DNA from: an uncultured Bacteroidota bacterium
GTDB lineage: Bacteria > Bacteroidota > Bacteroidia > 2-12-FULL-35-15
Assembly: GCA_903911435.1 (NCBI GenBank)
Contig: CAIWDF010000151.1
Location: 1-52,783 of the forward strand
Length of the DNA stretch: 52,783 bases
Direction of reading: 5' to 3'
Within the stretch, counting starts at the first letter, position 1. The number at the start of each line of letters is the position of its first letter. The translations under genes and the position numbers were made by a program. Positions 1,888 to 52,225 of this stretch are shown piece after piece. Under the pieces are notes generated by a model, which ran no database searches, was not told where the DNA came from, and saw only the letters and a program-made list of their open reading frames with translations.

Positions 1888-2970
1888 TTACTTTATCAAA
1901 GCCAATCCTTGTAATGCAGAAGTATCGCTAGGAGCAAGCATTAATACTTTATTGAAAAGTAATTTGGCTTCTGCGGTTTTTCCTGTTTTAAAATTAGCCC
2001 AAGCATATAATATTAGTCCGTCATAACTAAAAGGGTAAAGATTAACCACCTTTTCTAAATATTGATATGCCGAGGCAAAATCGTTTTTTGAATAATAATA
2101 AGCACCTAGCCCGTAATTAGCATAAGAATTTTGAGGGTCAACCTCAATAATTTTTTTATTATGTTTGCTCACTTCGTCATAGTTTCCTAAGGCTATCAAA
2201 GGAGATTTGATTCCAATTTGAGGCTCAATGGAAGCTGGTTTCAAATCAATTGCTATTTGATAATATTTGGTAGATTCCTTGTAGAGACCTGATAAATAAT
2301 TGAGCCACCCTAAACGAAAATTAACATCGTAATATTTGGGATTATATATATCTTTAAGAGAGGCCATTGCAGAGGCATAATCGCCTTTGCTTTCGAAGTC
2401 ATAACTTTTGTTGAACGCATTCACTATCTTATCGGAAGGTTTATCTTGTTTATTAATTTGCGTCCATGTGTCCCTTAAATAAGGCTCGTAACCAGAAGGA
2501 TATAGATTAATAATCTTCTCAAAATACTTCTTGGCATCCGAGTAATTCTTTTTGTTATAATTAATATATCCGAGTTGATAGTTGGAATTAATATCAAAAG
2601 CATCTACCTCAAGGATTTTTTTGTAGACTTCTTCCAAGCTCGTCATATTGTTCTCGGCATATACAGGATATATTAATCCAGTTTTTGCTTCAACAGAATA
2701 TGGCATAAGTTTAACTGCAATTCGATAGTAATTTTCGGATTCTTTATTTTTACCATCCTTATAATAAAGCCAACCAAGACGAAGATTCTCTTCATAAGAA
2801 GTGCTTACGTAGTCATCTTGCAGTGCTTTAATTGCGGTTTCGTAATCTTTGCTTTTTTCGAAATCGTAGCTTTTTGAAAATGCATTTGTGAGTTTTTGAT
2901 TTTGAGCGAAAGCACTGTTAATGCTTATGGATAATACAGTTGCAAGTAAAATATTTTTGATTCTTTTCAT
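1888..2970 (-). CDS. Secreted tetratricopeptide-repeat protein with internal duplication
   Basis: A 360-residue protein with a signal peptide ending at SAFAQ (about residue 22) and then TPR helices throughout (for example NYQLGYINYNKKNYSDAKKY). It consists of two copies of a block of about 155 residues: NAFSKSYDFEKSKDYETA near residue 28 is matched by NAFNKSYDFESKGDYASA near residue 183, and both are followed by LRLGWLYYKDG / FRLGWLNYLSG and by LYP-containing TPRs. Periplasmic location is inferred. It is the last gene of the six-gene minus-strand operon, 3 bp after the TPR/beta-barrel gene. TPR proteins usually act as scaffolds; no enzymatic function is visible. Confidence 0.75.
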   Translation of the reverse strand: MKRIKNILLATVLSISINSAFAQNQKLTNAFSKSYDFEKSKDYETAIKALQDDYVSTSYEENLRLGWLYYKDGKNKESENYYRIAVKLMPYSVEAKTGLIYPVYAENNMTSLEEVYKKILEVDAFDINSNYQLGYINYNKKNYSDAKKYFEKIINLYPSGYEPYLRDTWTQINKQDKPSDKIVNAFNKSYDFESKGDYASAMASLKDIYNPKYYDVNFRLGWLNYLSGLYKESTKYYQIAIDLKPASIEPQIGIKSPLIALGNYDEVSKHNKKIIEVDPQNSYANYGLGAYYYSKNDFASAYQYLEKVVNLYPFSYDGLILYAWANFKTGKTAEAKLLFNKVLMLAPSDTSALQGLALIK

Positions 2971-2973
2971 TGT

Positions 2974-4500
2974 TTAATTATTATTTTGGTTTGTAAATTT
3001 CTTAAAATTCTTAATTCTGATTCCAACAAAAAAATTGTTATAGTAATAATTGAAACCCAAAGGCGGTGCGTTTGGATGGTCAGGTGGTAGAGGTAGAGTA
3101 GCAAAATTGTTCTCGTAGGTATACACTGCAAAAAAATCAAGATGTTTTCCGATTATAAAATTCCCGACAGCCGAAAATCTTGAATGAGTCTTATCTGTTG
3201 AATTGTTTATGAGAAGACCATTTCCTTCAATAACATTGTTACTGTTAACATCCTTTTGCTTATCATTAAAATCCACCATATATCCTAAAGTGAGCATAAA
3301 TCTATTGGTCGGAAATAAAGTAATAGCAGGCGCTAAGGCTACTCTTGATTCTGCTGAATCGATTGTGTAGACATGGTGTATATCACCGCTAAGTATTATT
3401 CGATTATTGCCTAAAGGAGCGTAATTTATTGACAAGCTTGTTTGGATTCTTTTGGTCTTATCAAAATTTGAAAAGGTATTCCCAAGAGAAATTGAGAGAT
3501 TTGAAATACGCTTAGAAACAGAAAAGGACTCAACCATATAAATTGAATTCGCTTTTATTGAATTCGTTTGCAGCGTTGGATTGAATGGCACTTCAACAAT
3601 CTCTGGAGGTAACATAGGTGGATGCATTACACTCTTACTAAAAACGGTATTCTCGGTTCTGCTCTGAATACTACTATTAATAAAATGTATGGAAGGTGAC
3701 ACGGTCCAATTGTTTTTAAAAGGAATAGTCGCCCCTATATAATATTGAATTTGTTTGGTGACATCATAACTTTTTTTTGTTATTGGAGATGTAAAATGGT
3801 TAGTAGAATCTCGTGATAAAAATTGAGGATTGTGCAAATCAAAGGTTTTAAATCCATGACTAAAATGATCGGTCTCCTGAACAAAATTTGAAAAGGCATG
3901 AAACAAATAAAATCTGTTTTTTACGTAATGTCCGAATGCAAGTTGGAAATACTTTGCGTTAGAATAGCGTGCGGTATCTGTTGAATTTACATCGGCCGAA
4001 TCGAGATTACGAATATTATACAGCTTTTCAGGATGTGTGTTTTCAAATTGAGGGGAATTAGGAAACTTTCCTCCCGCACTAATTTCTATGATGTCCAAAG
4101 AAGAAGAATTATTAATTCCTATTTTTTTAACCAAATCATCGCCAAATTCGTTACTAAGTATCTTAGCATCAACATACCTTCCAGAATAAATATAACAATA
4201 ATATAAGTACTCTTTTACTAAATCATCACTAGAATTAAAAACTATTGCTTTCTGAAAATGAGTTGTCGCTAATAAATACCTTTTTTGTTCGTAATAAGCA
4301 ATACCAAGACGCAAACGCAAGTAATAATAGTCAAAATCTTGTTTTATTGCTTTCTTTGAAAACACAATTAATTCATCCCATTTTTTCTCTTGATAAAGCT
4401 GATACGAAACCTTTTCTACCAATAAAGTGTTGAGGGTATCTTGAGCCTTATATTTTTCAACACTCAAAAATAAAATCAGAATAATTACGATCCTATACAT
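2974..4500 (-). CDS. TPR plus outer-membrane beta-barrel protein
   Basis: About 508 residues from the start used here. The N terminus MYRIVIILILFLSVEKYKAQ looks like a signal peptide; an upstream in-frame ATG at 4515 would put five residues (MDRGS) before it and is less likely. Residues 25-120 form TPR-like helix pairs (LRLGIAYYEQKRYLLATTHF). The rest, to the C terminus, alternates polar and aromatic residues in strands ending with FFVGIRIKNF, as in outer-membrane beta-barrels. The fold is read from pattern, not from a recognised family. The gene overlaps the end of the transporter/peptidase gene by 16 bp and precedes the TPR protein by 3 bp, so it should act with the same operon product, perhaps as an outer-membrane channel or anchor. 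Confidence 0.7.
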   Translation of the reverse strand: MYRIVIILILFLSVEKYKAQDTLNTLLVEKVSYQLYQEKKWDELIVFSKKAIKQDFDYYYLRLRLGIAYYEQKRYLLATTHFQKAIVFNSSDDLVKEYLYYCYIYSGRYVDAKILSNEFGDDLVKKIGINNSSSLDIIEISAGGKFPNSPQFENTHPEKLYNIRNLDSADVNSTDTARYSNAKYFQLAFGHYVKNRFYLFHAFSNFVQETDHFSHGFKTFDLHNPQFLSRDSTNHFTSPITKKSYDVTKQIQYYIGATIPFKNNWTVSPSIHFINSSIQSRTENTVFSKSVMHPPMLPPEIVEVPFNPTLQTNSIKANSIYMVESFSVSKRISNLSISLGNTFSNFDKTKRIQTSLSINYAPLGNNRIILSGDIHHVYTIDSAESRVALAPAITLFPTNRFMLTLGYMVDFNDKQKDVNSNNVIEGNGLLINNSTDKTHSRFSAVGNFIIGKHLDFFAVYTYENNFATLPLPPDHPNAPPLGFNYYYNNFFVGIRIKNFKKFTNQNNN

Positions 4501-6683
4501 ACTGCCTCTATCCATTTATCTTTGTCCTTGATTAAAATTTTCGAAATCCTATTTTTTTCCATCTCGAGTTCAAAATCTAATTTTCTGATTACCCTCTCTC
4601 CTACCTTTACGCTAGTATTAGATGCAATTTTTATTTTTTGAGGATTTTGTAAGTCATCAATTTCCTTAAATGTTGATGAATAGTCCACTTTAAGGAAGAT
4701 TGAAAATGGCGCTATAAAATCTTGAATCACCTTTATCCCTCCTGAATAAAATCCTTGAATCGGTAATTTGTCTTCTACGGTCATCCCTTGAAAATAACTT
4801 AGCAATATCTTATTGGAAGCTAAGTAAAAATAATAAAGCAACGACTTATTGTCACCTTTAAATGATGTAAAATAATGTAGTGTTTCATTATTTACAAAAT
4901 AAGCTACTGACTTCGTTTCGTAACAATAAATGTAAGTAAGATTATTAATGTCAACGAACACTTCCCATTTCACTCTTGACTTCTTATCTCCCTTCTTTTG
5001 CTCAAATTCCATTATCATACCTGGAACAAAATGAAATGCCTCTGTTAGCAAAGAGGTAGGACTAGTTCTACATATCTGTTGCCCTTCTTTAGGATAATCG
5101 AATGAATGAAATTTGAATTCATTATTCTGTTTCGAAACAAAATATGCGATTGGATACTTAAGCGTTTTGGCACCAACGAAAGGGGTTGCTTGCAATTGAA
5201 AATGAATATGAGGCTCGGGAGAGCGCCCTGAATTACCACAAGTAGCCAGTATTTCCCCTTTTTTAACGTAATCACCAACCTTCACTTTAAAACTAGCAGC
5301 CTTAATATGACTTATTTTGCTGTATAAAGTATCTCCATGCTTTAGTATAATCGAATTACCCCAATTATCACCAAGATTTACATCTCCAATTGCGTTATCT
5401 TCAATATTGTCTACTAAAGTTATAACATAACCTGAACAAGGAGCTAAGATTGGTAAGTTATAACAATAGAAATCGGATAACTGCTCTCCAGGTAAACGAA
5501 AAGTCTTTTGTGTCTCATCAGTAACAACAAAATCCCAAGCATAACGCCATTCCCCTTTATGTGTAATGTTTCCCTCGTGACCTTGCGATATAAACCATTG
5601 ACCAAAAAATGGAAGGTGAATATGAAAATATGTATCGTTCTTGAATCGCTCTAAACTATTAACATAAGAATACAAATTCTTTTCTGGAGAAGATTCTTGG
5701 TATTGCACAAATAACAAGTTTCTATAAAAATAGCGATTATTCAAGGTGAAAATAATAAGAATAACAACCAATGAAAACGATAATGAATATTGCGGTAATT
5801 GAAACACACCAACTAGGTTCCCTAAGGCACTTATTAATAAACCTACGATTGGAGCAGAGAATAAGGCAAGCAAATACGATCGTGGTGATGCAATAAAAAA
5901 GTAACCGCCTAATGCAATGGAAGTAAGTATATAATTAAATCCAATGTAACTGTATTCTAATTCAGAGATATTCCCTTTCAAGAAATAACAGAATAAATAG
6001 CCTGTAAAAAAACCTATTAATGAAAGTGAAAATGCGATACGCGAGTAAATCAATAATCCAATCATTATTAATAAACCAGAAATAATGTTGTATTGAAAAA
6101 ATATAGCACCTAGTGATTTTAAATACAAGGAAACCAACTTCGGGATTCCCCACGAATTGGTTTTCTCGTACAAATGAACAAGAGTAGCACCTCCAATATT
6201 CCAAAGTTCATTAAAACTATAGATACTTCGTTCACTTAGTTGCAAAGCCCCTAAACTTCGAGAAGACAATAGAAGTAACCAAATGCTAATGATAAAAGGC
6301 AAACTCAAAAAAGGAACTTTGTAAGTGGTGACTAGGGATGCAAATGAAACTGTTAAGATAAGCGTTAGAAATGCTGCTAAAATTAACATCACGATGAAAG
6401 GCGCGCTCAATTTGAAGAAAACACCCATGGCTAAACCAACTAAAAGCGAATTGTAACCATATGTACCACATTTTATAGTAAGTGGATTAAGACCTAATAG
6501 TTGAGCGAAAATAATTGTGGCAAAAGTGCATATCAATCCACTTAAACCTGTAAATGGATCAATAAAGGAAGCAAGGATAACAAACACAGCTAGCCAGCTG
6601 CTGTTTGAAAACAACATTTGGCTATAACTTGCTGCAATACTATCCCTATAAAATCTTAAATGCTCTCCTAGTTTAGTGTGCAC
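4485..6683 (-). CDS. Urea-transporter-like membrane domain fused to M23 peptidase
   Basis: A 732-residue fusion. Residues about 20-320 are ten or so hydrophobic segments with the hallmarks of the urea transporter (UT) family: NPLTIKCGTYGYNSLLVGLA near residue 66 and a partly diverged LSLPF signature near 126, plus a second half with matching helices. Residues about 355-500 are a LytM/M23 metallopeptidase: possible zinc ligands H375 and D384 (THKGEWRYAWDF), H459 in SKISHI, and PHIHF with H492 and H494, plus GNSGRSPEPH. The remaining 230 residues are strand-rich and unassigned. M23 enzymes cut peptide cross-links in peptidoglycan, so the C-terminal part should face the periplasm. It lies 3 bp after the decarboxylase. 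The transported substrate in this operon is not known. Confidence 0.85.
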   Translation of the reverse strand: MHTKLGEHLRFYRDSIAASYSQMLFSNSSWLAVFVILASFIDPFTGLSGLICTFATIIFAQLLGLNPLTIKCGTYGYNSLLVGLAMGVFFKLSAPFIVMLILAAFLTLILTVSFASLVTTYKVPFLSLPFIISIWLLLLSSRSLGALQLSERSIYSFNELWNIGGATLVHLYEKTNSWGIPKLVSLYLKSLGAIFFQYNIISGLLIMIGLLIYSRIAFSLSLIGFFTGYLFCYFLKGNISELEYSYIGFNYILTSIALGGYFFIASPRSYLLALFSAPIVGLLISALGNLVGVFQLPQYSLSFSLVVILIIFTLNNRYFYRNLLFVQYQESSPEKNLYSYVNSLERFKNDTYFHIHLPFFGQWFISQGHEGNITHKGEWRYAWDFVVTDETQKTFRLPGEQLSDFYCYNLPILAPCSGYVITLVDNIEDNAIGDVNLGDNWGNSIILKHGDTLYSKISHIKAASFKVKVGDYVKKGEILATCGNSGRSPEPHIHFQLQATPFVGAKTLKYPIAYFVSKQNNEFKFHSFDYPKEGQQICRTSPTSLLTEAFHFVPGMIMEFEQKKGDKKSRVKWEVFVDINNLTYIYCYETKSVAYFVNNETLHYFTSFKGDNKSLLYYFYLASNKILLSYFQGMTVEDKLPIQGFYSGGIKVIQDFIAPFSIFLKVDYSSTFKEIDDLQNPQKIKIASNTSVKVGERVIRKLDFELEMEKNRISKILIKDKDKWIEAVCIGS

Positions 6684-6686
6684 AAT

Positions 6687-8045
6687 TTAAAGTTTGAATT
6701 CTTTTAAATATTTAGGAACAACCTCATCTCCTTGTATACTATTTAAGGTTTCTCTATTCCTTATTATATGCGCTTTTTCATCCATATCAATCATCACTAT
6801 CGCTGGTCGCAACGAAATAAATTGCATCCATTGCGTCATATTATAGGCTCCTACCATATGAACAACCACATTATCATCTCTTTTCAATGGAGGCAAAGTA
6901 ATGTTCTCTCTAATAACATCTATATTCATACAGAGTGGACCATACAATACAGCATCTTCGGTGTATTGACTAAACTCCTGAGCTGGACTTACTTTATGGT
7001 CGTACCAGAATGAAGTGAACAATACGTTTACACCAAAATCCATGATCGTTGCTCTTCTACCATCAGCCAATCGTTTGTTCGAAATAACAGTTCCTAACAA
7101 TGAACCTGCATCATCAATCAATGCTCTGCCTGTTTCAAGAATTAGCAAAGGTAATTCGTTTTCAACAAAACCTGCATTTAAAATAGCAGTTGTAATAGCT
7201 TCTGCAAATTGATCGAACGAAGGAGAAGAGTCTGCGCCTTGCAAATATGAACCTTTCAGGGTATTTCTGGAAGCAAAACCACCTCCCATATCTATGTACT
7301 CTATGTTCTTTTTATATTTCTTTTTTATACTCAATGCTAATTCTGAAAGTTTTGAAGCTGCCACACCATAAGCGCTAGGAGCTAACATAAAGGTCCCGAT
7401 ATGACTATGTAACCCAACTAAATCCATGGTGTCATTCAACATGATTTTATTGATAGCGTCCCATGCTTGACCATTTTCATAATTAAAACCAAATCGATCC
7501 CACATTGGATATACTCCTGTATCCATATTTACACGAATGGCAACCTTAGGCCTCTTCTTAGCATTAATTGCTAGTTCTTTGATTAAATACAATTCATCTA
7601 AATGGTCGATGTGTATCAATGAATTGTTTTCAATTGCTAATTTCAATTCCGCTTCTGCTTTGTCGGGACCATTAAAAATAATTTTATTTCCTGGCACTCC
7701 ATTATGCAAAGCTTTACTATACTCAAATCCAGAAACCACTTCTGCCCACGAACCTTCTTGATGGAATACATTACACACAGCATTCACATAATTGGTTTTG
7801 TAAGACCAAGCGAATTGCACTTTTGGGTAACGTGTTTTGAAAGCTCGGTTAGCATCTCTTAGCGTTTGTCTGATTGTTTTTTCGGAAATTACAAATAAAG
7901 GGGAACCATACTTTTGTAACAATTCCTTTACTGAGTTTCCATCAATATGGGTAACAGGAGCATATTCCGTACGTTTCCCAAATTTATTCATTACCCCTAC
8001 ATTCAATCTCTGTATTACAGGGCGTTCATATTGCATTCTTTTCAT
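6687..8045 (-). CDS. Fold-type III PLP-dependent amino-acid decarboxylase (LysA/ODC family)
   Basis: A 452-residue enzyme of the alanine-racemase-fold decarboxylases, which remove CO2 from amino acids such as diaminopimelate, ornithine or arginine. The PLP lysine is K83 in AWSYKTNY; HSHIG (213-217) packs on the cofactor; MGGGF (253-257) and ETGR (304-307) bind the phosphate; GPLCMNID supplies the catalytic Cys (372) and Asp (376). An extra 30 N-terminal residues precede the usual start of the fold (THIDGNSVKELLQKYGSPLF). The ETGR in place of EPGR and the operon context (PqqD-like carrier, ATP-grasp ligase, transporter/peptidase) argue for a special pathway and not ordinary lysine synthesis. 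The substrate cannot be read from sequence alone. Confidence 0.85.
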   Translation of the reverse strand: MKRMQYERPVIQRLNVGVMNKFGKRTEYAPVTHIDGNSVKELLQKYGSPLFVISEKTIRQTLRDANRAFKTRYPKVQFAWSYKTNYVNAVCNVFHQEGSWAEVVSGFEYSKALHNGVPGNKIIFNGPDKAEAELKLAIENNSLIHIDHLDELYLIKELAINAKKRPKVAIRVNMDTGVYPMWDRFGFNYENGQAWDAINKIMLNDTMDLVGLHSHIGTFMLAPSAYGVAASKLSELALSIKKKYKKNIEYIDMGGGFASRNTLKGSYLQGADSSPSFDQFAEAITTAILNAGFVENELPLLILETGRALIDDAGSLLGTVISNKRLADGRRATIMDFGVNVLFTSFWYDHKVSPAQEFSQYTEDAVLYGPLCMNIDVIRENITLPPLKRDDNVVVHMVGAYNMTQWMQFISLRPAIVMIDMDEKAHIIRNRETLNSIQGDEVVPKYLKEFKL

Positions 8046-8083
8046 AGCTTAATTCTTTTATATTTTTCTAATTCGATTTATTA

Positions 8084-9136
8084 CTATAATTCTCCTGTTG
8101 TAGAAATTTTTTCAAATTCATCTAAACCTACAATTAAGTCATAAGAATATCGCACGAACAACTTTCCGACATCGTATTTCTTAAAAGGTTTAACATCTTT
8201 CCCCAATGCCAAACTCACCAATGCTTCCGGATGATTCTGCCCGCAACCTACAGCAAGGTACACCCAAGCAGGAAAACGAGGATTGATCTCCAACAAATAA
8301 TAATCCCCCTCGTTGGTTTTGATTATTTCGAGTTCCATTCCTCCTCTCCATTTCGCGGAACGAAAAAGGTTCTTCGTCATATCTAATAGATTTTGATCAT
8401 CCAACGATATACCTGACCAAGCTTTCCCTTTATCTGTAATATATTGTTTTCGCATCGGCACTGCACCAATCACGTTACCTTTTCCATCGCCAATAGCGGT
8501 CACATTTACTTCTTGTCCATAAACCATTTCTTGAATGATGATGGGCAATCCCCACTTCGCACTAATTTTATTGAAATAAGTAGCTGCTTGTTCAGGCGTG
8601 TATGCAATAGAAGCGTCATAGAACTTTCCTTTTACCACTAATGGATAATTAAACTCTTCTTTAAGCCCAGCTATCTCGGAAGTGCTAAAAATCATTTTCC
8701 CATAAGGCACTTTTATCCCATGTTTCTTACCATATTCCGAAAGGTTGGCTTTATGTCTTTCTTCAAATTGCTCCAACGTGGGAAGAAAGGTATTAATGTT
8801 CATATCCTTCTTTAGCTTATCTGCTAGGGTGATGAAGTTGTAAAGCTCCGCATCAAAGTTCGGAATCAATACATCAATCTTCTCAATACTATTAATGTAC
8901 TCTAAGCGAGTAAGTAATGCAGCTTTACCTGTTGAAGGAAAAGGTATTTGATAGGTTTTGTCAACCAAGTCGTGCATGTATATCCCTGGCTCAAGGGTTT
9001 CGTATGACAATCCAATGATTCGAACATCATAAAGTTCACTTTCGCGCAAAGCCCTGATTACAGGTATCCCAGGACCTGGGCTATCGATATTATTTAGACC
9101 AGTAACGGCTATATTAATCTTTTTTCTTTTCGGCAT
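8084..9136 (-). CDS. ATP-grasp ligase (carbamoyl-phosphate-synthase-like fold)
   Basis: A 350-residue ATP-grasp enzyme; such proteins make an amide or thioester bond through an acyl-phosphate. The N-terminal Rossmann-like segment has NIAVTGLNNIDSPGPG (residues 8-23), similar to CarB-type pre-ATP-grasp domains. ATP contacts are expected at K169 (PLVVKGKF) and E203 (IIQEMVYGQEV), and magnesium is held by E270, E283 and N285 (MELEII and LLEINPRFPAW). The gene starts 23 bp inside the PqqD-like gene; the next Met is at residue 54 and would delete the first strand, so the overlap is real. Its neighbours suggest a role in ligating an amino acid to a carrier peptide or small molecule. Known families with PqqD plus ATP-grasp neighbours make peptide modifications; this one is unassigned. 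Confidence 0.85.
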   Translation of the reverse strand: MPKRKKINIAVTGLNNIDSPGPGIPVIRALRESELYDVRIIGLSYETLEPGIYMHDLVDKTYQIPFPSTGKAALLTRLEYINSIEKIDVLIPNFDAELYNFITLADKLKKDMNINTFLPTLEQFEERHKANLSEYGKKHGIKVPYGKMIFSTSEIAGLKEEFNYPLVVKGKFYDASIAYTPEQAATYFNKISAKWGLPIIIQEMVYGQEVNVTAIGDGKGNVIGAVPMRKQYITDKGKAWSGISLDDQNLLDMTKNLFRSAKWRGGMELEIIKTNEGDYYLLEINPRFPAWVYLAVGCGQNHPEALVSLALGKDVKPFKKYDVGKLFVRYSYDLIVGLDEFEKISTTGEL

Positions 9137-9374
9137 CTTCGGTTAATTTTAATTTTCCAAGCATTTCTACAAAATCATATAAATCTTTTTCAAAACTTAC
9201 TTCATCTATCATGTATTCTTTCACAATAGATGCTTTAATTTCTTGTGTTGCTTTTCCTTCTTTCAACATTTTAATTATCTCTAATCCTATTGGATTGGTT
9301 GAAAAAGAGTCGCCTGATGAAGGATCAAATACAAATCCTGAATCGCTCAATGCAATGTTTCGTTTTATTTTCAT
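9114..9374 (-). CDS. PqqD-like small peptide-binding protein
   Basis: An 86-residue protein with the PqqD / RiPP-recognition-element layout: an N-terminal strand region (IALSDSGFVFDPSSGDSFS), then NPIGLEIIKMLKEG and a helical C terminus with an EVSFEKDLYDFVEML motif. PqqD domains bind precursor or carrier peptides and present them to modifying enzymes. It is the first gene of the six-gene minus-strand operon and overlaps the ATP-grasp gene by 23 bp. No short precursor peptide gene was found beside it, which leaves its partner open; it may instead bind a ribosomal peptide encoded elsewhere or serve as an adaptor for the ligase. Assignment rests on pattern and context. Confidence 0.7.
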   Translation of the reverse strand: MKIKRNIALSDSGFVFDPSSGDSFSTNPIGLEIIKMLKEGKATQEIKASIVKEYMIDEVSFEKDLYDFVEMLGKLKLTEDAEKKKD

Positions 9375-9446
9375 ATTTTAAATTATTAAATTGTGTGATA
9401 ATACTTTTTAATTATAATTGTTTGTTTTGATGGCAAAATGTTTTAC

Positions 9447-10142
9447 TCAATTCTTGATTAAATAAAGTGCATCTTTTCTATACACATTTCCAATCGGAAT
9501 ATCTTTTCCTGCAATCTTTATAGCCTTACTCTTAATTTTTTCAATTTTCCTTAACGAGACAATGAACTTACGATGTATCCTAATAAATTCACTTTTGTTC
9601 AATCTATCCATCATATCCTTCATGGTCATACGCGTTGTTATTCGCTTTTGATTTTGCAAATATATATTTACGTAATCGCCCAATGCCTCTATGTATAATA
9701 TTTCAGCTACAACAAACTTTTGCAAACCATGGTTGGCTCTCACAAATATATTTTCATTGCCTTCCAATCTTTTACTCGAAATCTGAATATTAAAATAATT
9801 AACAATCTTCGCCAATGTACTTTCCACTCTTTCAAAAGAATATGGCTTCAGCAAAAAATCTAATGCATCCATATCATAAGCATCGATAGCGAGTTCTTTT
9901 TGAGTTGAAGTAAAAACCACTTTAATGTTTTGGCCTATCTTTTCATCAAAATCTATCCCCCAAGCTTTTGCTAACACAATATCAACAAATAAAACATCCA
10001 CAGGGTACTTTCTCAGGTGTTTCAATCCTAGAATCATTGAAGTAAATGTTTTATCCAACTTAATTCGTTCTGAACCCACACAATCTTTAAGAATAAGTTC
10101 TAGTGATTTGGGTTCTGTATCTATTATTATTGTACGCAACAT
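9447..10142 (-). CDS. LytTR-family response regulator
   Basis: About 231 residues from the start chosen at 10142 (MLRTIIIDTEP); a longer frame beginning at 10220 adds 26 residues that do not belong to the fold. Residues 1-118 are a receiver domain with the phosphoacceptor Asp in VLFVDIVLA and the Lys in FLLKPYS. The acidic pair that holds magnesium is reduced: the strand ends IIIDTEP where DDE is usual. Residues 130-231 are a LytTR DNA-binding domain (IFVRANHGLQKF, IEALGDYVNIYL, FIRIHRKFIVSLRKIEKI). No kinase lies next to it. It sits upstream of, and in line with, the PqqD operon (73 bp away), so it may be transcribed with it or control it. Confidence 0.88.
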   Translation of the reverse strand: MLRTIIIDTEPKSLELILKDCVGSERIKLDKTFTSMILGLKHLRKYPVDVLFVDIVLAKAWGIDFDEKIGQNIKVVFTSTQKELAIDAYDMDALDFLLKPYSFERVESTLAKIVNYFNIQISSKRLEGNENIFVRANHGLQKFVVAEILYIEALGDYVNIYLQNQKRITTRMTMKDMMDRLNKSEFIRIHRKFIVSLRKIEKIKSKAIKIAGKDIPIGNVYRKDALYLIKN

Positions 10143-10325
10143 GTTTACTGAATCTATTTCGAAAGTTTCTGTTTGTTTTTGCGATACAAAGGTGCAGGGT
10201 TTAGAAAACCTGCTCGTCACAGAATTATAAAAAAATGTAATGATATTTTAAGGTAGGTGGATATTCGAAGGCAATCACTCCTCAGTTTGTTCTTGCAGAA
10301 TTGTTACAGACAAGCTCTGAAGCCC

Positions 10326-10928
10326 TTAGTCAATCAAGGTATTGAGGGCTTTTCTATCTTTTTTACCTGAATTTTTGTATTCACTCACCGTATAGCCTGT
10401 TACCTGCTTGAACTGATTACTCAAATACTGAACACTACTATAACCCATAAAATAAGCTATTTCGCTAAGCGTGTATTCATCATAACTAATCATTTCTTTT
10501 ATTTTCTCGGCCTTGATGAGGATGATGTACTTCTCAAGGGTTATCCCTGTGGTTTCCGAAAATACTTTACTTAAATGCTGATAAGAAAGCTGGAGTTTCT
10601 CGCTTAGGTAATCACTATTTCTCACTAATGACGTATTGTTATTGCCATAAAAAACAAACTGTATCACTGCTGTCTTAATTTTTTCGACTAGCTTCTTATT
10701 GGTATCCAACAACAACTCGAATCCGTTTCGTTTCAGAATTTCGTTTACCACATTCAGGTTAAAAATCTGGCTATCAAACTGTATTTCTGCCTCTCCCAAC
10801 TCCACACTCAATACCTCGATAAAACCGGTACGCTCCAATTCCTGTTTTACTATTTTCACACAACTCGTACTCACCATATTCTTAATATGGATAACAGTAC
10901 GTGAAGTATTAAAATTATGTTTTTGCAT
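10326..10928 (-). CDS. AraC-family regulator with N-terminal HMA-like domain
   Basis: A 200-residue protein. Residues 1-75 look like a ferredoxin-like heavy-metal-associated (HMA) domain (VIHIKNMVSTSCVKIVKQEL...GFIEVLSVELGEAEIQF), but the CxxC metal site is reduced to a single Cys in MVSTSCVKIV. Residues 85-195 are an AraC DNA-binding domain: two helix-turn-helices, with YLSEKLQLSYQHLSKVF and LSEIAYFMGYSSVQYLSNQF. Small AraC proteins of this layout are known in Bacteroidota. The loss of the metal pair suggests sensing of something other than a soft metal, or only a structural role. A hairpin spanning the stop codon (10320-10351) may help end the transcript. Confidence 0.82.
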   Translation of the reverse strand: MQKHNFNTSRTVIHIKNMVSTSCVKIVKQELERTGFIEVLSVELGEAEIQFDSQIFNLNVVNEILKRNGFELLLDTNKKLVEKIKTAVIQFVFYGNNNTSLVRNSDYLSEKLQLSYQHLSKVFSETTGITLEKYIILIKAEKIKEMISYDEYTLSEIAYFMGYSSVQYLSNQFKQVTGYTVSEYKNSGKKDRKALNTLID

Positions 10929-10948
10929 TTTTTATCGGTAACGAATTG

Positions 10949-10956
10949 CAAAGTTA
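10949..10956 (-). promoter_or_regulatory. -7 box of the AraC/HMA regulator gene
   Basis: Read on the minus strand this is TAACTTTG, a match to the Bacteroidota -7 consensus TAnnTTTG, 20 bp before the start codon. Confidence 0.5.
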
Positions 10957-11200
10957 GAAAAATAGTGTGGCTTTAATAACTAGTGAGAAATTAAATTTAC
11001 ATTAAACCTTTCCTCCATTTTTCTTCGGGTAATATCTATGGACCGAACTTTCAATTAATTTGCAAAGTAAACGAATTAATAGTCGAATTTACTCTCGACA
11101 GCTAAAGGAAGTCAATTGTAAAGAAACGAAGTGGTAACTAAGGGACATAATTATTTTACAATTATTTCACATACCCTAATCATTATATTATAGTATTTGC
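10957..11200. other. Intergenic region between divergent genes
   Basis: AT-rich spacer between the AraC-type gene (minus) and etfB (plus). Apart from the two -7 boxes at its edges I see no gene, strong hairpin or repeat in it. Several GAATTAAT / ATTAATAG-like stretches occur but without clear symmetry. Confidence 0.5.
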
Positions 11201-11208
11201 TAAATTTG
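11201..11208 (+). promoter_or_regulatory. -7 box of the etfB operon
   Basis: TAAATTTG matches TAnnTTTG and lies 33 bp before the etfB ATG. Its position is a reason to reject the in-frame upstream start at 11197, which would overlap the promoter. Confidence 0.55.
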
Positions 11209-11241
11209 CGCTTCTTTTTAAAAAAATATAAAATATTTGTT

Positions 11242-11982
11242 ATGAAAATACTAGTTTGTATCAGCAACGTACCCGATACCACTACAAAGATTAGCTTTAC
11301 TAATAATAATACAGCTTTCAACACGGCAGGTGTGCAATTTGTAATCAATCCTTTTGACGAGTGGTATGCACTCGTTCGCGCTTTGGAGCTAAAAGAAGCT
11401 CAAGGAGGAAACGTAACCATCATTCACGTTGGAACAGCCGAGAGCGAACCAACCATTCGCAAAGGATTAGCCATTGGTGCTGACGATGCGGTGAGAATAG
11501 ATGCCGAACCAAATGATGCTTTTGCGGTAGCCGAACAAATAGCTGCATTTGCAAAGGACAAAGGATTCGATTTGATATTGGCAGGTAAAGAAACCATCAG
11601 CTACAATGGGTCGATGGTAGGCGCTATGCTAGCCGAATTATTGAACCTTCCGTATGTACCAATGGCAACTAAACTTGATGTGACTAACAATGTTGCAACC
11701 ATCGAACACGATATCGATGGAGGAACCGAAGTAGTAGAATGTGCCTTACCATTGGTAATTGCTGCTAATAAAGGAATGGCCGAAGCTCGTATACCAAACA
11801 TGAGAGGAATTATGGCGGCTCGTACCAAACCATTGTTGCAAGTTTCGGCTATAACTGCCGATAAATTAACATCCATTACTGCTTTTGAATTGGCTAAAGG
11901 TCGCACTGATTGTAAGTTCGTTGACGCTAGCACACCAGAAAAACTGGTTGAACTTCTTCACAACGAAGCAAAAGCTATTTAA
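11242..11982 (+). CDS. etfB: Electron transfer flavoprotein beta subunit
   Basis: EtfB pairs with EtfA to carry electrons from acyl-CoA dehydrogenases and similar flavoenzymes to the quinone pool; it binds the AMP/FAD-adenylate part. The chosen start MKILVCISNVPDT gives 246 residues, the usual length. Visible family motifs: INPFDEWYALVRALELKE near residue 36, the nucleotide-binding VTIIHVG strand, and the signature VPMATKLDV...AARIPNMRGIM-like block (EARIPNMRGIMAARTKPL). etfA follows after 27 bp, so the two are co-transcribed. Confidence 0.96.
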   Translation: MKILVCISNVPDTTTKISFTNNNTAFNTAGVQFVINPFDEWYALVRALELKEAQGGNVTIIHVGTAESEPTIRKGLAIGADDAVRIDAEPNDAFAVAEQIAAFAKDKGFDLILAGKETISYNGSMVGAMLAELLNLPYVPMATKLDVTNNVATIEHDIDGGTEVVECALPLVIAANKGMAEARIPNMRGIMAARTKPLLQVSAITADKLTSITAFELAKGRTDCKFVDASTPEKLVELLHNEAKAI

Positions 11983-12009
11983 TATTTAACATTCAAAAAA
12001 CTAAACGAT

Positions 12010-12978
12010 ATGTCAGTACTTATCTATACAGAAGTTTCGAAAGGAAAAGTAAAAAAAGCTTCATTAGAAGCTGTAAACTATGGTAGCCGCATCGCTACCC
12101 AATTGAACATGAAAGCCACCGCTGTGATTATTGGCGATGGAGATTTAAGCGATTTGGGAAAAGCAGGAGCTAGCAAAGTTTTAAAAATTAATAACGAAAA
12201 ACTTGTTAACCTTGATGGACAATATTTAACAGCTGCTATTGAACAAGCTGCTAAAGCTGAGGATGCAAGCATCATTATATTTTCAAATGACTTTACAGGA
12301 AAAGAAATTGCACCACGTCTTGCTGCTCGTTTAAAAGCAGGCCTAGTTGCTGGAGCGGTTGACAACCCAGTTATTTCAGGCGATTCATTCACCGTGAAGA
12401 AAAATGTTTTTTCGGGAAAAGCAGTTGCCATGTATGCACTTCACTCCGAAAAGAAAATTATTTCCTTATTACCAAACTCCTTTGCTGTTGAGTTGAAAGA
12501 AGGTTCGGCAGAAATTGTTGATTTCGCTGTAAACCTTGATGGCATCAACTCTCCAGTAAAAGTGAAAGAGGTAAAAAAAGTGTCATCCGACTTAAACCTT
12601 GCCGATGCTGAACTAGTTGTTTCAGCGGGAAGAGGTATGAAAGGCCCTGAGAATTGGGGAATGATAGAAGACCTTGCTAAAGTTTTAGGAGCAGCTACTG
12701 CGTGTTCGCGCCCAGTGGCCGACATGGATTGGCGGCCTCACCACGAACATGTGGGACAAACAGGATTAGCCATCCGTCCTGATTTATATATTGCCATAGG
12801 TATTTCGGGAGCCATCCAACATCTTGCTGGTGTTAATGGTAGCAAAGTAATGGTGGTCATCAATTCCGATAAAGAAGCTCCCTTCTTTAAATCTGCCGAC
12901 TACGGTATCGTGGGCGATGCATTCGAGATTGTTCCAAAACTAACCGAAGCAATTAAAAAGTTTAAAGCAAACCAATAA
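12010..12978 (+). CDS. etfA: Electron transfer flavoprotein alpha subunit
   Basis: A 322-residue EtfA, the FAD-holding partner of EtfB in the cytoplasmic electron carrier of fatty-acid and amino-acid oxidation. The N-terminal half has the adenine-nucleotide-like fold; the C-terminal FAD domain shows VVSAGRGMKGPENWGMIEDL, the block VGQTGLAIRPDLYIAIGISG, and GAIQHLAGVNGSKVMVVIN, with the conserved His of SGAIQH. Length is normal and no residue looks lost. It is separated by 48 bp from the nuclease-like gene that follows, and the run continues with nucleotide-metabolism genes. Confidence 0.96.
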   Translation: MSVLIYTEVSKGKVKKASLEAVNYGSRIATQLNMKATAVIIGDGDLSDLGKAGASKVLKINNEKLVNLDGQYLTAAIEQAAKAEDASIIIFSNDFTGKEIAPRLAARLKAGLVAGAVDNPVISGDSFTVKKNVFSGKAVAMYALHSEKKIISLLPNSFAVELKEGSAEIVDFAVNLDGINSPVKVKEVKKVSSDLNLADAELVVSAGRGMKGPENWGMIEDLAKVLGAATACSRPVADMDWRPHHEHVGQTGLAIRPDLYIAIGISGAIQHLAGVNGSKVMVVINSDKEAPFFKSADYGIVGDAFEIVPKLTEAIKKFKANQ

Positions 12979-13026
12979 TTCGAGGATAGAATTCAGATTG
13001 TTCGAATAGGAATAAAAGAAAAGGAA

Positions 13027-13623
13027 GTGAAAAAAGTAAAATTGGAAATAGTAGGCTTATCTTATAGTCAAACACAAACAGGTGCTTACGCACTGGTTTT
13101 GGGAGAGACCAAAGGGCAAAAGAGAAGGCTACCCATCATCATCGGAGGGTTCGAAGCGCAGGCGATTGCCATAGAGTTAGAGAAAATGACACCCAGCAGA
13201 CCTCTTACCCACGATTTGTTCAGAAGCTTTGCCACTTCCTTTAACATTGTTGTTGATGAGGTCATCATCTATAATTTAGTAGATGGTATTTTTTATGCCC
13301 GCTTGGTTTGCCAAAACGAAGTAGGCAAATCTGTAGAAATAGATGCTCGTACCTCTGACGCCATTGCACTTGCTGTTCGATTCAACTGCCCGATGAATAC
13401 CTACGAATTTATTTTGGCGAAAGCAGGAATCCTGCTCGATGATGAAGCGCCTGTCAAAACTGACAACTTCAACGAAGAAGATAAAATGGAAGTAGAAGAA
13501 ACAAGTCTGATTAAAAAATCAGCAGACGAGCTTCAGCAAATGCTCGAAAGTGCATTGCAAGACGAGGACTATGAACGTGCTTCGAAAATAAGAGATGAGT
13601 TAAACAATCGCAAAAAATCTTAA
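13027..13623 (+). CDS. Bifunctional nuclease-family protein with C-terminal UvrB/UvrC motif
   Basis: A 198-residue protein starting with GTG at 13027 (VKLEIVGLSYSQTQTGAYAL). Residues 1-135 are the BFN/DUF151 domain: LVLGETKGQKRRLPIIIGGF, AQAIAIELEKMTPSRPLTHD and SDAIALAVRFNCPM. Homologues in plants and Thermotoga were reported to have RNase/DNase activity. The last 40 residues form a UVR motif (ADELQQMLESALQDEDYERA), a coiled helix pair that in UvrB/UvrC and Clp proteins mediates protein contact. The two-domain form is common in Bacteroidota. The nucleoside transporter starts 18 bp later. The in vivo role is not established. Confidence 0.85.
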   Translation: MKKVKLEIVGLSYSQTQTGAYALVLGETKGQKRRLPIIIGGFEAQAIAIELEKMTPSRPLTHDLFRSFATSFNIVVDEVIIYNLVDGIFYARLVCQNEVGKSVEIDARTSDAIALAVRFNCPMNTYEFILAKAGILLDDEAPVKTDNFNEEDKMEVEETSLIKKSADELQQMLESALQDEDYERASKIRDELNNRKKS

Positions 13624-17225: not shown

Positions 17226-17479
17226 AATGCGTCTTCAGAATCCTGAAAGGATTGAATGTTAATAGCCCCCAATGAAATTGGGGGATAATGATGCGTCTGC
17301 ATTTTACTCAACTCCCAAGGAGTTGAACACCCTTCGTATTGAACTCCATTCGGAGTTCGGCAAAACTTAAATACTTCCCCACCCCCAATTGCATTGGGGG
17401 CTATTCATATTAAACTCTTTCAGAGTTTTTTATTCAATACTGTATATAGAATTCGAAACTCAATTTCCGAAAAAGGAAA
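17226..17479. repeat. Hairpin-cluster direct repeat, copy A
   Basis: A 254-bp block, repeated at 17772-18026. It is a string of short inverted repeats: AATCCTGAAAGGATT, CCCCCAATGAAATTGGGGG, CAACTCCCAAGGAGTTG, GAACTCCATTCGGAGTTC, CCCCCAATTGCATTGGGGG, AACTCTTTCAGAGTT and TTTCCGAAAAAGGAAA, separated by short linkers. Every stem is identical between the copies; the differences I can see fall in loops or linkers. It lies between the convergent lipoprotein and BtuG-like genes and has no coding sense. Confidence 0.9.
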
Positions 17480-17773
17480 CTCGTCTCCGAACGCTCGGAG
17501 GCCTATTTCCGAAAAAGGAAACCCGTCTCCGAACACTCGGAGGCCTATTTCCGAAAAAGGAAACCCATCTCCGAACGCTCGGAGGCCTATTTCCGAAAAA
17601 GGAAACCCATCTCCGAACGCTCGGAGGCCTATTTCCGAAAAAGGAAACCCGTCTCCGAACACTCGGAGGCCTATTTCCGAAAAAGGAAACCCGTCTCCGA
17701 ACGCTCGGAGGCCTATTTCCGAAAAAGGAAACCCGTCTCCGAACACTCGGAGGCCTATTTCCGAAAAAGGAAA
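17463..17773. repeat. Tandem array of a 42-bp two-hairpin unit
   Basis: Seven full units starting at 17463, 17505, 17547, 17589, 17631, 17673 and 17715, with a partial eighth at 17757. Each unit holds two hairpins: TTTCCGAAAAAGGAAA and CTCCGAACGCTCGGAG (the loop reads ACGC or ACAC). Units differ only at a few loop or linker bases. Because 42 is a multiple of 3 and no stop falls in it, several long open frames cross the array on both strands; I consider all of them artefacts. Confidence 0.92.
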
Positions 17774-18119: not shown

Positions 18120-19196
18120 TTAACGGAAACAGAAATTACCGGGAATGATGCCTGCCGCAAAACTATCGAGCACGACACCTGCTTGATTGTAACGAATGAC
18201 TTTTCCATTGCTCGAAAAGTTGCCAGCATCGCCAGCAAAGATGGCATTAGAAGTAGGGTCGTAGCCGAGGCTGTAAAACCCACGGTTGATTAACGGTGCG
18301 GAAGCCAAGCTTGGTGCAGCAATGGGCTGAACGTAAACGCCACCATTGTAGAGATAATAAAGCGTTGTTTTGGCAGCATCGATGCAGAGGTGCATTGGCG
18401 AATTGGTGGTGGACGCAAACGGCAACGACAACTCCACTGTGTTGGTGGCAGGGTTGATGCGCACAAGGCTACCTGTGTTTACGAGCGATGTATAACTCGA
18501 GTTCCACTTGCCCACGCACAATACCCAAAGCTTGCCATTGGCGTCAAGCTGCATGCTTGCAGGATTGGCACCCGTGTTGATATTGGTCAATACGGCATTG
18601 GTGGTAGCGTCAATCGCAGTAACCACAGTATCGTTGGTGAATCCTCCACTGCAAGCCACATACACGGTGTTGCCTACCTTCACCATGGCATCGGCACCAT
18701 TGCCCGTAGCTATGGTTCCTGTGATGGCATTGGTGTTCAGGTCGATTACTTTCACCTCGCCAGTGGCTCCACTTCCGAATTGCGAAATGTATCCTTTGCT
18801 TGATGTAATGCCTAAAAAGCAACGAGGACTAGTGAGACCCGTGATGGTACCTACACTAGCGAACGAGTTAGCATCTACTACTTCTACCTTGCCGGCATTA
18901 TTCACAACGATGTAACCCTTGCTATTGTACACTTCCATGGATTGTACCACATTGCCCAAGGGGAAACTATTCTTGGTGTTGAAAATGTCGGAACTTACCG
19001 AACCGTTGCTACGGCTGTAAAAACTAACTGTGCCTGTGCCTGTGCCATACGGTCCTTCGTTGGTTATAAACACACCGTTGGTATAGCCCGAAGCAGGTGT
19101 AGTGGGGTTTGTGGTTTCGGGGTCGTCTTTTTTACAACCCATCATGGAGATTGCGAAAGCAATGCTGCTGGCAAAAATCAATTGTTTTACATTCAT
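18120..19196 (-). CDS. BtuG-like surface lipoprotein, YncE-type beta-propeller (DUF5074-like)
   Basis: A 358-residue lipoprotein: signal sequence then lipobox MMGC with C20 or so and KKDDPETT, a stretch rich in acids and Thr/Pro that would favour surface export. The rest consists of repeated propeller blades, such as GKVEVVDANSFASVGTI, GEVKVIDLNTNAITGTIATG, TVVTAIDATTNAVLTNINTG and GSLVRINPATNTVELSL. The order riboswitch, BtuB-like receptor, propeller lipoprotein matches the B12 uptake genes of Bacteroides, in which BtuG binds cobalamin with very high affinity and hands it to BtuB. That role is inferred here from context and fold; sequence identity was not measured. It is 56 bp downstream of the receptor gene. 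Confidence 0.8.
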   Translation of the reverse strand: MNVKQLIFASSIAFAISMMGCKKDDPETTNPTTPASGYTNGVFITNEGPYGTGTGTVSFYSRSNGSVSSDIFNTKNSFPLGNVVQSMEVYNSKGYIVVNNAGKVEVVDANSFASVGTITGLTSPRCFLGITSSKGYISQFGSGATGEVKVIDLNTNAITGTIATGNGADAMVKVGNTVYVACSGGFTNDTVVTAIDATTNAVLTNINTGANPASMQLDANGKLWVLCVGKWNSSYTSLVNTGSLVRINPATNTVELSLPFASTTNSPMHLCIDAAKTTLYYLYNGGVYVQPIAAPSLASAPLINRGFYSLGYDPTSNAIFAGDAGNFSSNGKVIRYNQAGVVLDSFAAGIIPGNFCFR

Positions 19197-19252
19197 GTTA
19201 TTCTGTGTTTTAGTTAATTAATTTGTGTATTCGTTTTAGCATTTCCTTGTAT

Positions 19253-21175
19253 TTACGGCTTGTTTGGCTTGTTAAAATAAATCCCCACTCCTGCTTGTGC
19301 ATTGAGCAATGGCATCGCTCGGTACTGCATCACTTGGTAGGTTTGGTTCCATACATTATTTAGTTGAACAAAGATTCTGAAGCTCCATTTCTTTAGCAGA
19401 ATCAACTGATTGAGCGAAACGTTGCTCACCGAATACGGTTTCAGAAAAACCAAATTATCCGTGGACGTATAGCGATAACCCGCATAAATAGTGGTATAGC
19501 TCACCGAGAAATGACGATAGCCAATGGAAATACTGCCTTGCGCATTTTGAATGGGTACATACATCAACTGTTTGTGAAGCGATGCATCGCCCACTATGGC
19601 TGAGCTTTCGTTGGTCGACAATACATAATTATAAAGTCCCGAAAGTTTCACCTTCAATTTCTTAAAGGTATAAGTCGCATTCAGCTTATACTCCACTCCT
19701 CTCGACCATACACTGGCCACGTTTCCAGCCGACCACACATTGGCAGCATTAGGCGACCACAGTATCCAATTGTCAATCGTTCTATTAAACAGACTAGCGC
19801 CCAGATACCAAGAGATTGATTTTATTTCGTGTTGATGGTTCAAACTTATTTCTTCGCTCCACCCGTTCTCCGGCTTCAAATCAGGGTTTCCGCCTTGTGC
19901 CCAATATAAATCGTTGAAGGTAGGGATGCGGTAATGTTTGGCAATATTCATCTTCACATAAAAATACTTGAGGAATTTCCCATCCACCCCAATGGTTGGT
20001 GAGAAAGGGATAGATGTGTTTTTGATGAACTCTTGTCGCGCACTAAGCAATACATTCCAGTTGTTGTTTTTCGTATGCAACTTATAGCTCGCAAACAAAG
20101 CCGTTCGGTTTTGATATTTATTCACACCATAGTCGAGGGTGCTGGCTTGGCTATACGTATTGTTAAATCCAATGTTCACAGCATCTAGCTTGGTGATGCT
20201 AAACCTCGATTCGGCTTCGGCAATCGTCACCTCACTCCTACTTTTCGATTGAAGATGAATCATCGAGTCGGTATAATTTATCCCTTCGTTAAAATAAGCA
20301 ACGCGAGCAAGTAAGGCCACACGCTCTCCGGTGCGCTGCCATTCGGTGCTAGCGCGCAGGGCATCATCTTTCTGATTGGCTACACTTTTATCTTCGGTCA
20401 TCGATGGCGGAAGATTCCTGTCATTATTTTGATACCAAATGCGGGTGTTCAGTTTCTGATGCGAAGAAATTTGAAAAAGATTTTCTTGCAAAATTCCATA
20501 GGCTTTCAATTCGGCATTGGTTTGTTTCTCCTCCGGAAAGCCGCGTTTGGCAATGTTTGTAAATGTAAAGTCGTTAGTTGCTTGATGATTGAATATCTTA
20601 AGTGAGGAAGCAAATTTACGTTTGCTCACCTCCACACTGGCTTGCTGTTGCGCATCGTTATAACTTCCCATCGAAGCCATGGCACTCACCGTAAGCCCAC
20701 GATTAAAGGGCAAAGCATTGTTCAGCAAGATGGTTCCACCTACCGCTCCACTCCCCCACAAAGCGCCTGCACCGCCATATTGCAACCTTACATCGTTCAG
20801 AAAAAACGAAGGAATAAGGGAGATGTCCAACAACCCCAACATAGGGCTTTCGATGTTGAAACCATTCCACAAAACGGCTGTATGGCTTGCTCCTGCCCCA
20901 CGAAACGAAGTAGTGGCAAGGCTTCCCAGTCCGTACGATTTTACAAACACTTGCGTTTCGTTGGTCAATACATCGGCAAGGTTGCTAGTGGCATACTTAT
21001 TAAGCATAGCGCTATCGATGGTTTCGCACTTATTGCCCGAAGAAAACTCATTCAATCGCAACGATGATATTTCTACCGGCTTCAACTGCTTGATGGAATC
21101 CACCAACGATTGGGCATTGCCCAAAAGGGCGTGCGCGCAGCAGAAAACACAGATTGACGTTTTAAAAAAATTCAT
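19253..21175 (-). CDS. btuB: TonB-dependent receptor, BtuB-like (cobalamin uptake)
   Basis: A 640-residue outer-membrane receptor. A signal peptide ends at LLGNAQS. A plug domain of about 110 residues follows, with LADVLTNETQVFVKSYG, TTSFRGAGASHTAVLWNGFN and YGGAGALWGSGAVGGTILL, and then a 22-strand-type barrel rich in aromatic strand ends. It has no N-terminal CarboxypepD domain, unlike the two other receptors in the window. The cobalamin riboswitch immediately upstream identifies the substrate as B12 or a relative. It would take energy from TonB/ExbBD, not encoded here. The BtuG-like lipoprotein downstream is its likely partner. Confidence 0.88.
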   Translation of the reverse strand: MNFFKTSICVFCCAHALLGNAQSLVDSIKQLKPVEISSLRLNEFSSGNKCETIDSAMLNKYATSNLADVLTNETQVFVKSYGLGSLATTSFRGAGASHTAVLWNGFNIESPMLGLLDISLIPSFFLNDVRLQYGGAGALWGSGAVGGTILLNNALPFNRGLTVSAMASMGSYNDAQQQASVEVSKRKFASSLKIFNHQATNDFTFTNIAKRGFPEEKQTNAELKAYGILQENLFQISSHQKLNTRIWYQNNDRNLPPSMTEDKSVANQKDDALRASTEWQRTGERVALLARVAYFNEGINYTDSMIHLQSKSRSEVTIAEAESRFSITKLDAVNIGFNNTYSQASTLDYGVNKYQNRTALFASYKLHTKNNNWNVLLSARQEFIKNTSIPFSPTIGVDGKFLKYFYVKMNIAKHYRIPTFNDLYWAQGGNPDLKPENGWSEEISLNHQHEIKSISWYLGASLFNRTIDNWILWSPNAANVWSAGNVASVWSRGVEYKLNATYTFKKLKVKLSGLYNYVLSTNESSAIVGDASLHKQLMYVPIQNAQGSISIGYRHFSVSYTTIYAGYRYTSTDNLVFLKPYSVSNVSLNQLILLKKWSFRIFVQLNNVWNQTYQVMQYRAMPLLNAQAGVGIYFNKPNKP

Positions 21176-33740: not shown

Positions 33741-33980
33741 ATGAAAGCAATTGAAACCACCTCGGTAACCGATAAAAAGGGGTATTTAAAATTAAATATG
33801 CCTTTGCAGCTAAAAGAGAAAAAAGTGAAAGTTATCATATTAATGGATGAAAGCGATGAGGATGAAGAAGCCTTGTGGTTAAAAGCTATTTCATCAAATC
33901 CTTCCTTTGCTTTTTTAAAAGATAAAGAAGAAGATATTTATAAAATAACTGATGGCAAACCATTCAATGGAAAAAAATAA
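33741..33980 (+). CDS. Putative antitoxin of a MazF/PemK-type toxin
   Basis: A 79-residue protein: an N-terminal strand segment (VTDKKGYLKLNMPLQLKEKK VKVIILMDE in two parts), an acidic stretch DESDEDEEALW, and a helical C terminus ending in Lys. The order (short strand-type DNA-binding start, acidic helix for toxin binding) and the overlap with a PemK-like toxin gene fit a type II antitoxin. No named family was recognised from sequence alone. It should repress its own promoter at 33717. Confidence 0.75.
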   Translation: MKAIETTSVTDKKGYLKLNMPLQLKEKKVKVIILMDESDEDEEALWLKAISSNPSFAFLKDKEEDIYKITDGKPFNGKK

Positions 33981-52200: not shown

Positions 52201-52225
52201 CTATTTTGAGGTGAAAAAACGAGTA

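Follow-up and report, generated by a model that had tools for sequence, protein, structure and literature searches.

Introduction

RREs serve to find RiPP clusters and are assumed to bind precursor peptides. The discrete RREs of lasso systems recognise a [Y/W]xxPx[L/V/I/F/A] motif in the leader; in LppB, D70 hydrogen-bonds the leader Tyr and N33 fixes the Pro kink, and in PbaB1, F83 divides the binding pocket (PMC13381572). Among the PLP decarboxylases of the alanine-racemase (AR) fold, the clade-2 enzymes serve specialised metabolites, and BtrK and MccE illustrate that the clade takes conjugated substrates (PMC7857480). In the N-citrylornithine decarboxylase FigC, an acidic residue for binding a free side-chain amine is replaced by M355, and H357, R387 and possibly N389 are predicted by docking to contact the citrate (PMC7857480).

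An operon that combines these protein families with envelope proteins occupies positions 1888-9374 of the window, that is, of the whole stretch of 52,783 nucleotides analysed here. The source genome comprises 4.19 Mb in 312 contigs, and its nearest named relatives are Bacteroidetes MAGs. The analysis suggests that the PqqD-like protein of this operon is an RRE and takes as its ligand a leader-like tag carried by the decarboxylase, whose gene is the second one downstream.

A conserved six-gene operon

All six open reading frames lie on the minus strand, in the transcription order PqqD-like protein, ATP-grasp ligase, PLP decarboxylase, UT-M23 fusion, TPR-barrel protein and TPR protein. The initial annotation had described six minus-strand genes with these domains, and the reading frames and Pfam matches bear it out. 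Neighbouring genes are separated by 3, 3 and 38 bp or overlap by 23 and 31 bp; these values agree with the sizes given earlier except for the last overlap, which shrinks to 16 bp when the TPR-barrel gene is taken to start at its second Met, probably the basis of the earlier figure of 16 bp. Upstream, also on the minus strand, are a LytTR response regulator (9447..10220), which is accessory and absent from some loci, and an AraC-type regulator (10326..10928).

When bacteria and archaea were scanned with each species represented by one genome, 317 stretches matched; 80 loci were retained from these, and synteny was counted on the 79 loci with a callable ligase ORF. The PqqD-like gene adjoins the ATP-grasp gene in 79 of 79 loci of these species-representative genomes, and on contigs that extend far enough the decarboxylase comes next (74/74), followed by UT-M23 (62/65) and the TPR-barrel gene (57/60). 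Because this order is preserved in nearly all of the 79 relatives, it goes far beyond chance, and the six-gene set is a conserved operon. The check on conserved neighbours that had been proposed with the initial annotation thus finds the genes together at these rates among the 79 related loci, and the lack of co-occurrence that it had named as counter-evidence is absent. An AraC homologue is found upstream of the cassette in 24 of the 71 loci with room for it, and LytTR or histidine-kinase genes occupy this place in others.

Among 99 relatives, the ATP-grasp protein is present in 22 and UT-M23 in 36; the 22 genomes with the ligase are also precisely those that encode the tagged decarboxylase. 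The cassette is also found in other classes of the phylum and, as labelled in the records, in Ignavibacteria; additional genome searches yielded few further lineages. A role in anti-phage defence was considered and dropped, since PADLOC gave no match.

Several variations of the arrangement should be mentioned. Genes for a hybrid histidine kinase with an Hpt domain and for a response regulator lie immediately upstream of PqqD in L083, L084, L085 and L086, an arrangement seen in several genomes of the same genus. The cassette is split in genome G060, with PqqD, ATP-grasp and decarboxylase genes on one contig and UT-M23 with a barrel-sized gene on the other (the pair L093 and L094), which suggests two separable halves. 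Genome G005 carries two PqqD/ATP-grasp/decarboxylase triads (L061 and L083), one of them, on a short contig, without a visible UT-M23. Locus L113 is a Bacteroidota-type cassette on a contig recorded as a Bifidobacterium breve MAG, which is probably misbinned or mislabelled.

Elsewhere in the window, an AcpS-type phosphopantetheinyl transferase lies beside the putative flexirubin acyl-CoA ligase FlxY (NF053551, 710 bits) at 114-1809, possibly the end of a flexirubin pigment cluster. A small ORF overlaps a PemK/MazF-like toxin gene at 33741-34302, a probable toxin-antitoxin pair. A TonB-dependent receptor with a Plug domain precedes a 358-aa protein that is predicted to be secreted and whose N-terminus resembles that of lipoproteins (18120-21175), and tandem repeats are located in or near short ORFs at 17463-17773 (42-bp), 31640-32203 (22-bp) and 52225-52365 (21/42-bp units).

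The PqqD-like protein and the decarboxylase tag

The PqqD-like protein (86 aa; 9114..9374, minus strand) matches PF05402 above the cutoff (E=1.2e-7), and the profile of its family retrieves TbiB1 (5v1u, 5.5e-11) and TfuB1 (6jx3, 1.1e-5) from the PDB, with a lasso PqqD chaperone (9x90) at 0.0079. Judged by these family matches, it would be a discrete RRE. The lasso B1 RREs TbiB1 and TfuB1 are its closest solved relatives, and its top NCBIfam match is a lasso PqqD, so that the earlier idea of a PqqD/RRE-type peptide binder has held up at the level of sequence relationships. A fold other than that of PqqD/RRE proteins, the second kind of counter-evidence named with the initial annotation, is accordingly not indicated by these relatives. 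Neither a lasso B2 peptidase nor a C (Asn-synthetase-like) cyclase was found among the window neighbours scanned or in the conserved gene order of the relatives.

The leader-binding set of the lasso B1 proteins, consisting of the kink Asn, the Asp for the Tyr, the Phe divider and the Leu pocket, is present. By alignment, N27 (9294-9296, minus strand) corresponds to LppB N33, D64 (9183-9185) to LppB D70 and F68 (9171-9173) to PbaB1 F83, with L72 and L77 completing the set. N27 is found in 118 of 118 loci, F68 in 108, L72 in 110 and L77 in 104, and D64 in 103 of the 118, being missing only alongside Phe tags, apart from one gap.

These tags belong to the decarboxylase, whose N-terminus is extended by about 30 residues that have no equivalent when FigC or LysA is aligned with it. 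In nearly all loci the sequence [Y/F]ERPxI, which matches the lasso leader motif [Y/W]xxPx[LVIFA], falls within ~12 residues of the likely start. In the window, the tag comprises residues 1-17, MKRMQYERPVIQRLNVG (7995..8045, minus strand), with the core motif YERPVI at 8013-8030. P9 is kept in 125 of 125 sequences, position 11 is I, L or V, and the region past the motif (LNxGxxNKFG) is likewise conserved. The tag is absent from eight LysA paralogues of the relatives. It is predicted to be disordered, as AlphaFold2 assigned residues 1-3 and 5-17 a pLDDT below 50 on a confident core.

The tag and the RRE also vary together. For 118 distinct decarboxylases, a tag Tyr goes with PqqD Asp64 in 101 of 101 cases and a tag Phe with Ser, Tyr or His64 in 14 of 14, so that where the Tyr hydroxyl is lost, the Asp to which it would bond is lost as well. 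There are zero exceptions among loci with both positions readable, and four further loci are concordant. The Fisher p of 2.8e-18 is uncorrected for phylogeny and inflated by relatedness. The ATP-grasp tree shows four Y/F changes, at least three of them forced by supported branches and all concordant, and a separate tree of the decarboxylase core likewise requires four; with only three to four independent changes a sign test gives p=0.25, too few events for significance. As a background control, 37,968 PqqD-decarboxylase column pairs were ranked, and the Y6-D64 pair came 1st by MI/H and 2nd by MI-APC. Other tag positions covary equally with the ATP-grasp protein and with PqqD, which looks like phylogenetic background; coevolution of the entire tag specifically with PqqD was therefore rejected, and only the Y6-D64 pair was retained.

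From homology and covariation together, we strongly infer a contact between the RRE and the tag. Because the tag motif matches the lasso leader and the tag Tyr and D64 covary without exception, the ligand of PqqD would be the leader-like tag, and PqqD would dock the decarboxylase itself, a reading to which we assign a probability of about 0.72. The initial annotation had instead suggested a separate small peptide or a carrier-bound intermediate, whereas the motif for PqqD is located on the decarboxylase.

It is also conceivable that the decarboxylase is itself a RiPP-like substrate, presented by PqqD to the ATP-grasp ligase, which would add a group or a cross-link and thereby activate or alter a full-size metabolic enzyme. 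Classical RREs hand the bound ligand to a modifying enzyme, and graspetide ATP-grasp ligases modify precursor peptides (PMC8939145). The ligase is the sole other enzyme of the core triad, and the conservation of LNxGxxNKFG beyond the motif exceeds what docking needs. However, the decarboxylase has the complete catalytic set expected of a small-molecule enzyme, the ligase belongs to the CPS-like/PRK12767 group, and an alternative module described below has a decarboxylase and an ATP-grasp ligase together but no PqqD match. Modification of the decarboxylase is thus unlikely, and docking by PqqD is the preferred reading.

The decarboxylase substrate

The decarboxylase (452 aa; 6687..8045, minus strand; Orn_Arg_deC_N 6.3e-28, Orn_DAP_Arg_deC 8.8e-12) has a complete catalytic set: K83, H213, the GGG at 254-256, E304, R307, C372 and D376. 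Its nearest relative is the N-citrylornithine decarboxylase FslC/FigC (NF041039, E=4.6e-69; 7kh2, 7.3e-59), with which it shares the catalytic residues of the AR-fold PLP enzymes and the Met after the catalytic Cys, although its score of 233 bits is below the NF041039 cutoff of 500. BtrK is also among its PDB matches. An identity as LysA is weakened by the active site, which reads CMNID for CESxD, lacks the DAP-binding Arg and carries W347/Y348 in the specificity helix, and the protein falls under the TIGR01048 cutoff. The replaced side-chain-binding residues also speak against DAP, ornithine, arginine and lysine, the substrates that had been suggested for assay.

The Met of FigC is kept (M355, here M373), T330 of the FigC specificity helix corresponds to W347, and the residues at the FigC citrate contacts H357, R387 and the possible contact N389 are I375, Q405 and M407. 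Because the Met is kept while the citrate-contacting residues are replaced, we infer a substrate whose side chain may be masked by an uncharged group instead of citrate.

The same replacements weaken a citrate-siderophore reading and, more generally, a metallophore-type pathway leading to a citrate- or carboxylate-based chelator comparable to rhizoferrin. The kinship with the N-citrylornithine decarboxylase and the service of clade-2 AR-fold enzymes in specialised metabolism (PMC7857480) would fit such a pathway, but neither an NIS synthetase nor a TonB receptor is found among the conserved neighbours, and with H357, R387 and N389 all replaced it is quite improbable.

The ATP-grasp ligase and a second module

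ATP-grasp ligases of this family make an acyl-phosphate-derived bond. The ligase of the operon (350 aa; 8084..9136, minus strand; PF15632, 3.5e-10) is nearest to the CPS-like PRK12767/2pn1 group, and its catalytic residues E268, E270, E283, N285 and R287 are invariant. Graspetide synthetases act on a small precursor that has a leader and an acceptor core; here the ligase is of the CPS-like/PRK12767 type, and no precursor was found within ±1.5 kb.

This search bears on the possibility that the locus is an ordinary RiPP cluster, with a small precursor for PqqD encoded elsewhere and the decarboxylase tag a coincidence or a secondary competitor. PqqD and ATP-grasp proteins both occur in RiPP clusters, and a precursor could be unlinked. 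Nevertheless, no conserved precursor-like small ORF accompanies the cassette within ±1.5 kb in 97 loci, which answers the earlier proposal that a short peptide gene might travel with the cluster, and a separate precursor peptide was rejected on these grounds. The recurrent small-ORF families near the cassette are antisense, save one same-strand family upstream of PqqD in 7 loci that is apparently an overlapping frame. Moreover, the 22 of 99 genomes with the ligase are exactly those with the tagged decarboxylase, and the covariation of tag and PqqD is exceptionless. An ordinary RiPP cluster is accordingly very unlikely.

UT-M23 genomes without the cassette ligase almost always encode an ATP-grasp protein of the PRK06524 type (the copy in L062 matches at 1.6e-224). 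The two ligase types are found in 22 and 16 of the 99 genomes, with an overlap of 0. Of the 36 UT-M23 genomes, 34 hold one or the other, the exceptions being G014, at a contig edge, and G070, with a weak match. The PRK06524-type loci that were fetched also carry an OKR-type decarboxylase, and where both lie on one fetched contig the two genes are divergent, beside UT-M23. This module has no PqqD match, and its decarboxylase/ligase pair is non-homologous to the PqqD module, yet it accompanies the same UT-M23. By analogy, the two modules may represent a non-orthologous replacement, with two routes to a similar ligated amine; the existence of two rhizoferrin routes offers a parallel (PMC7857480). 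In L062-L073 (for example, L062:3031-7974 and 8240-13117), the UT-M23/TPR/barrel module lies beside a 913-aa OKR-type decarboxylase and a PRK06524 'biotin carboxylase' ATP-grasp protein, and these loci also encode a conserved protein of ~145 aa without a Pfam or NCBIfam match.

The envelope proteins

The fourth gene (4485..6683, minus strand) encodes a membrane protein of the UT fold that carries an M23 peptidase domain in the same chain (UT, PF03253, 4.4e-58; Peptidase_M23, 2.2e-14). The UT domain matches dvUT, UT-A and UT-B and aligns with dvUT end to end. Of the residues of the urea filter (dvUT numbering, PMC4357013), T130 is Ser in 23 of 26 sequences and E187 is Ala or Gly in 26 of 26. 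Because of these changes the cargo is probably not urea; the assignment as 'UT' thus stands for the fold, but probably not in the sense of a urea transporter. The M23 residues that bind zinc or act in catalysis (H375, D384, H459, H492 and H494) are invariant in 26 sequences, and the chain carries a C-terminal extension of ~230 residues. A urea/polyamine system, with urea as the cargo of UT and a polyamine as the product of the decarboxylase, could appeal to the unambiguous UT fold and to the OKR decarboxylases that flank UT-M23 in other genomes, but it is the least probable reading, given the altered filter (E187 to A/G, T130 mostly to S) and a decarboxylase whose nearest relative is a non-polyamine enzyme and in which the residues binding a free side-chain amine are missing.

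The TPR-barrel protein (2974..4515, minus strand) has a signal peptide, periplasmic TPR helices and an outer-membrane beta-barrel. Its AlphaFold2 model (mean pLDDT 82.6) has FadL/TodX/OmpG-type outer-membrane barrels as top Foldseek matches, and the protein is predicted to resemble FadL/OmpG porins with a periplasmic TPR domain, in line with the envelope TPR/barrel protein proposed initially. The secreted TPR protein encoded last (1888..2970, minus strand) consists of two halves of ~200 aa, each of which matches a separate TPR gene in relatives.

Discussion

The following mechanism is proposed. PqqD would act as an RRE of the YxxP type: it would bind the flexible tag at the N-terminus of the decarboxylase, whose gene is the second one downstream, and would thereby dock this enzyme, most likely onto the ATP-grasp ligase by way of a presumed RRE-ligase contact. 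The ligase would couple an amino acid, probably at the amine of the side chain, to a second acid. From this conjugate the docked decarboxylase would strip the free alpha-carboxylate, yielding a small N-acylated amine. This chemistry, with its presumptive substrate and order of reactions, is put forward tentatively and is somewhat more likely to need revision than to stand. The M23 domain might open the peptidoglycan locally at the UT-fold channel, and the amide might leave via this channel and the TPR-barrel porin. Export is the simplest reading for the envelope part, with uptake as an alternative, and is possible at a little under even odds. UT pores in solved structures are just 2-3 A wide (PMC10541013), which speaks against a large amide passing through, unless the T-to-S and E-to-A replacements make the channel wider.

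No prior description of an RRE-docked tagged decarboxylase was found in the open-access PMC literature. If the docking is true, the RRE module also organises ordinary small-molecule pathways, which would explain some RREs without a precursor and provide a natural portable enzyme-docking tag. Across many Bacteroidota, the operon itself would define an uncharacterised pathway for an amino-acid-derived metabolite, together with an envelope module dedicated to it.

The comparison with known systems can be drawn protein by protein. The UT domain shares its fold with dvUT and the animal urea transporters, with altered filter residues, and the M23 domain shares all catalytic and zinc residues with the LytM/ShyA/DipM-type peptidases; in contrast to both groups, the two are here one fused chain. 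The MfnD tyramine-glutamate ligase and PylC-type ligases also join amino acids or amines, but the match of MfnD to the ligase is weak (E=8.7e-4), a similarity too low for membership.

With the lasso B1 proteins (TbiB1, TfuB1/FusB1, PbaB1) and LppB, PqqD shares both the family and the equivalents of the residues that hold YxxPx[LIV] (N27, D64, F68, L72 and L77). However, their ligand motif is carried by a precursor peptide and here by a 452-aa enzyme, no B2 protease or C cyclase is among the neighbours scanned, and some lineages have a Phe for the tag Tyr and the matching loss of the Asp. An RRE that docks a leader-tagged enzyme would thus be a variant of the RRE systems, one that the sequence comparisons strongly support.

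FslC/FigC (7kh2), the nearest solved relative of the decarboxylase, has the AR fold and the GPxCM motif in common with it, but the enzyme described here has a tagged N-terminus of ~30 residues and replaced citrate contacts, and is partnered by an ATP-grasp ligase instead of an NIS synthetase. Butirosin biosynthesis, in which BtrJ is the ATP-grasp ligase, likewise combines such a ligase with an AR-fold decarboxylase (BtrK) and a small helper protein (BtrI). BtrI is an acyl carrier and holds the substrate, whereas in the present operon the small protein, an RRE, appears to hold the enzyme instead.
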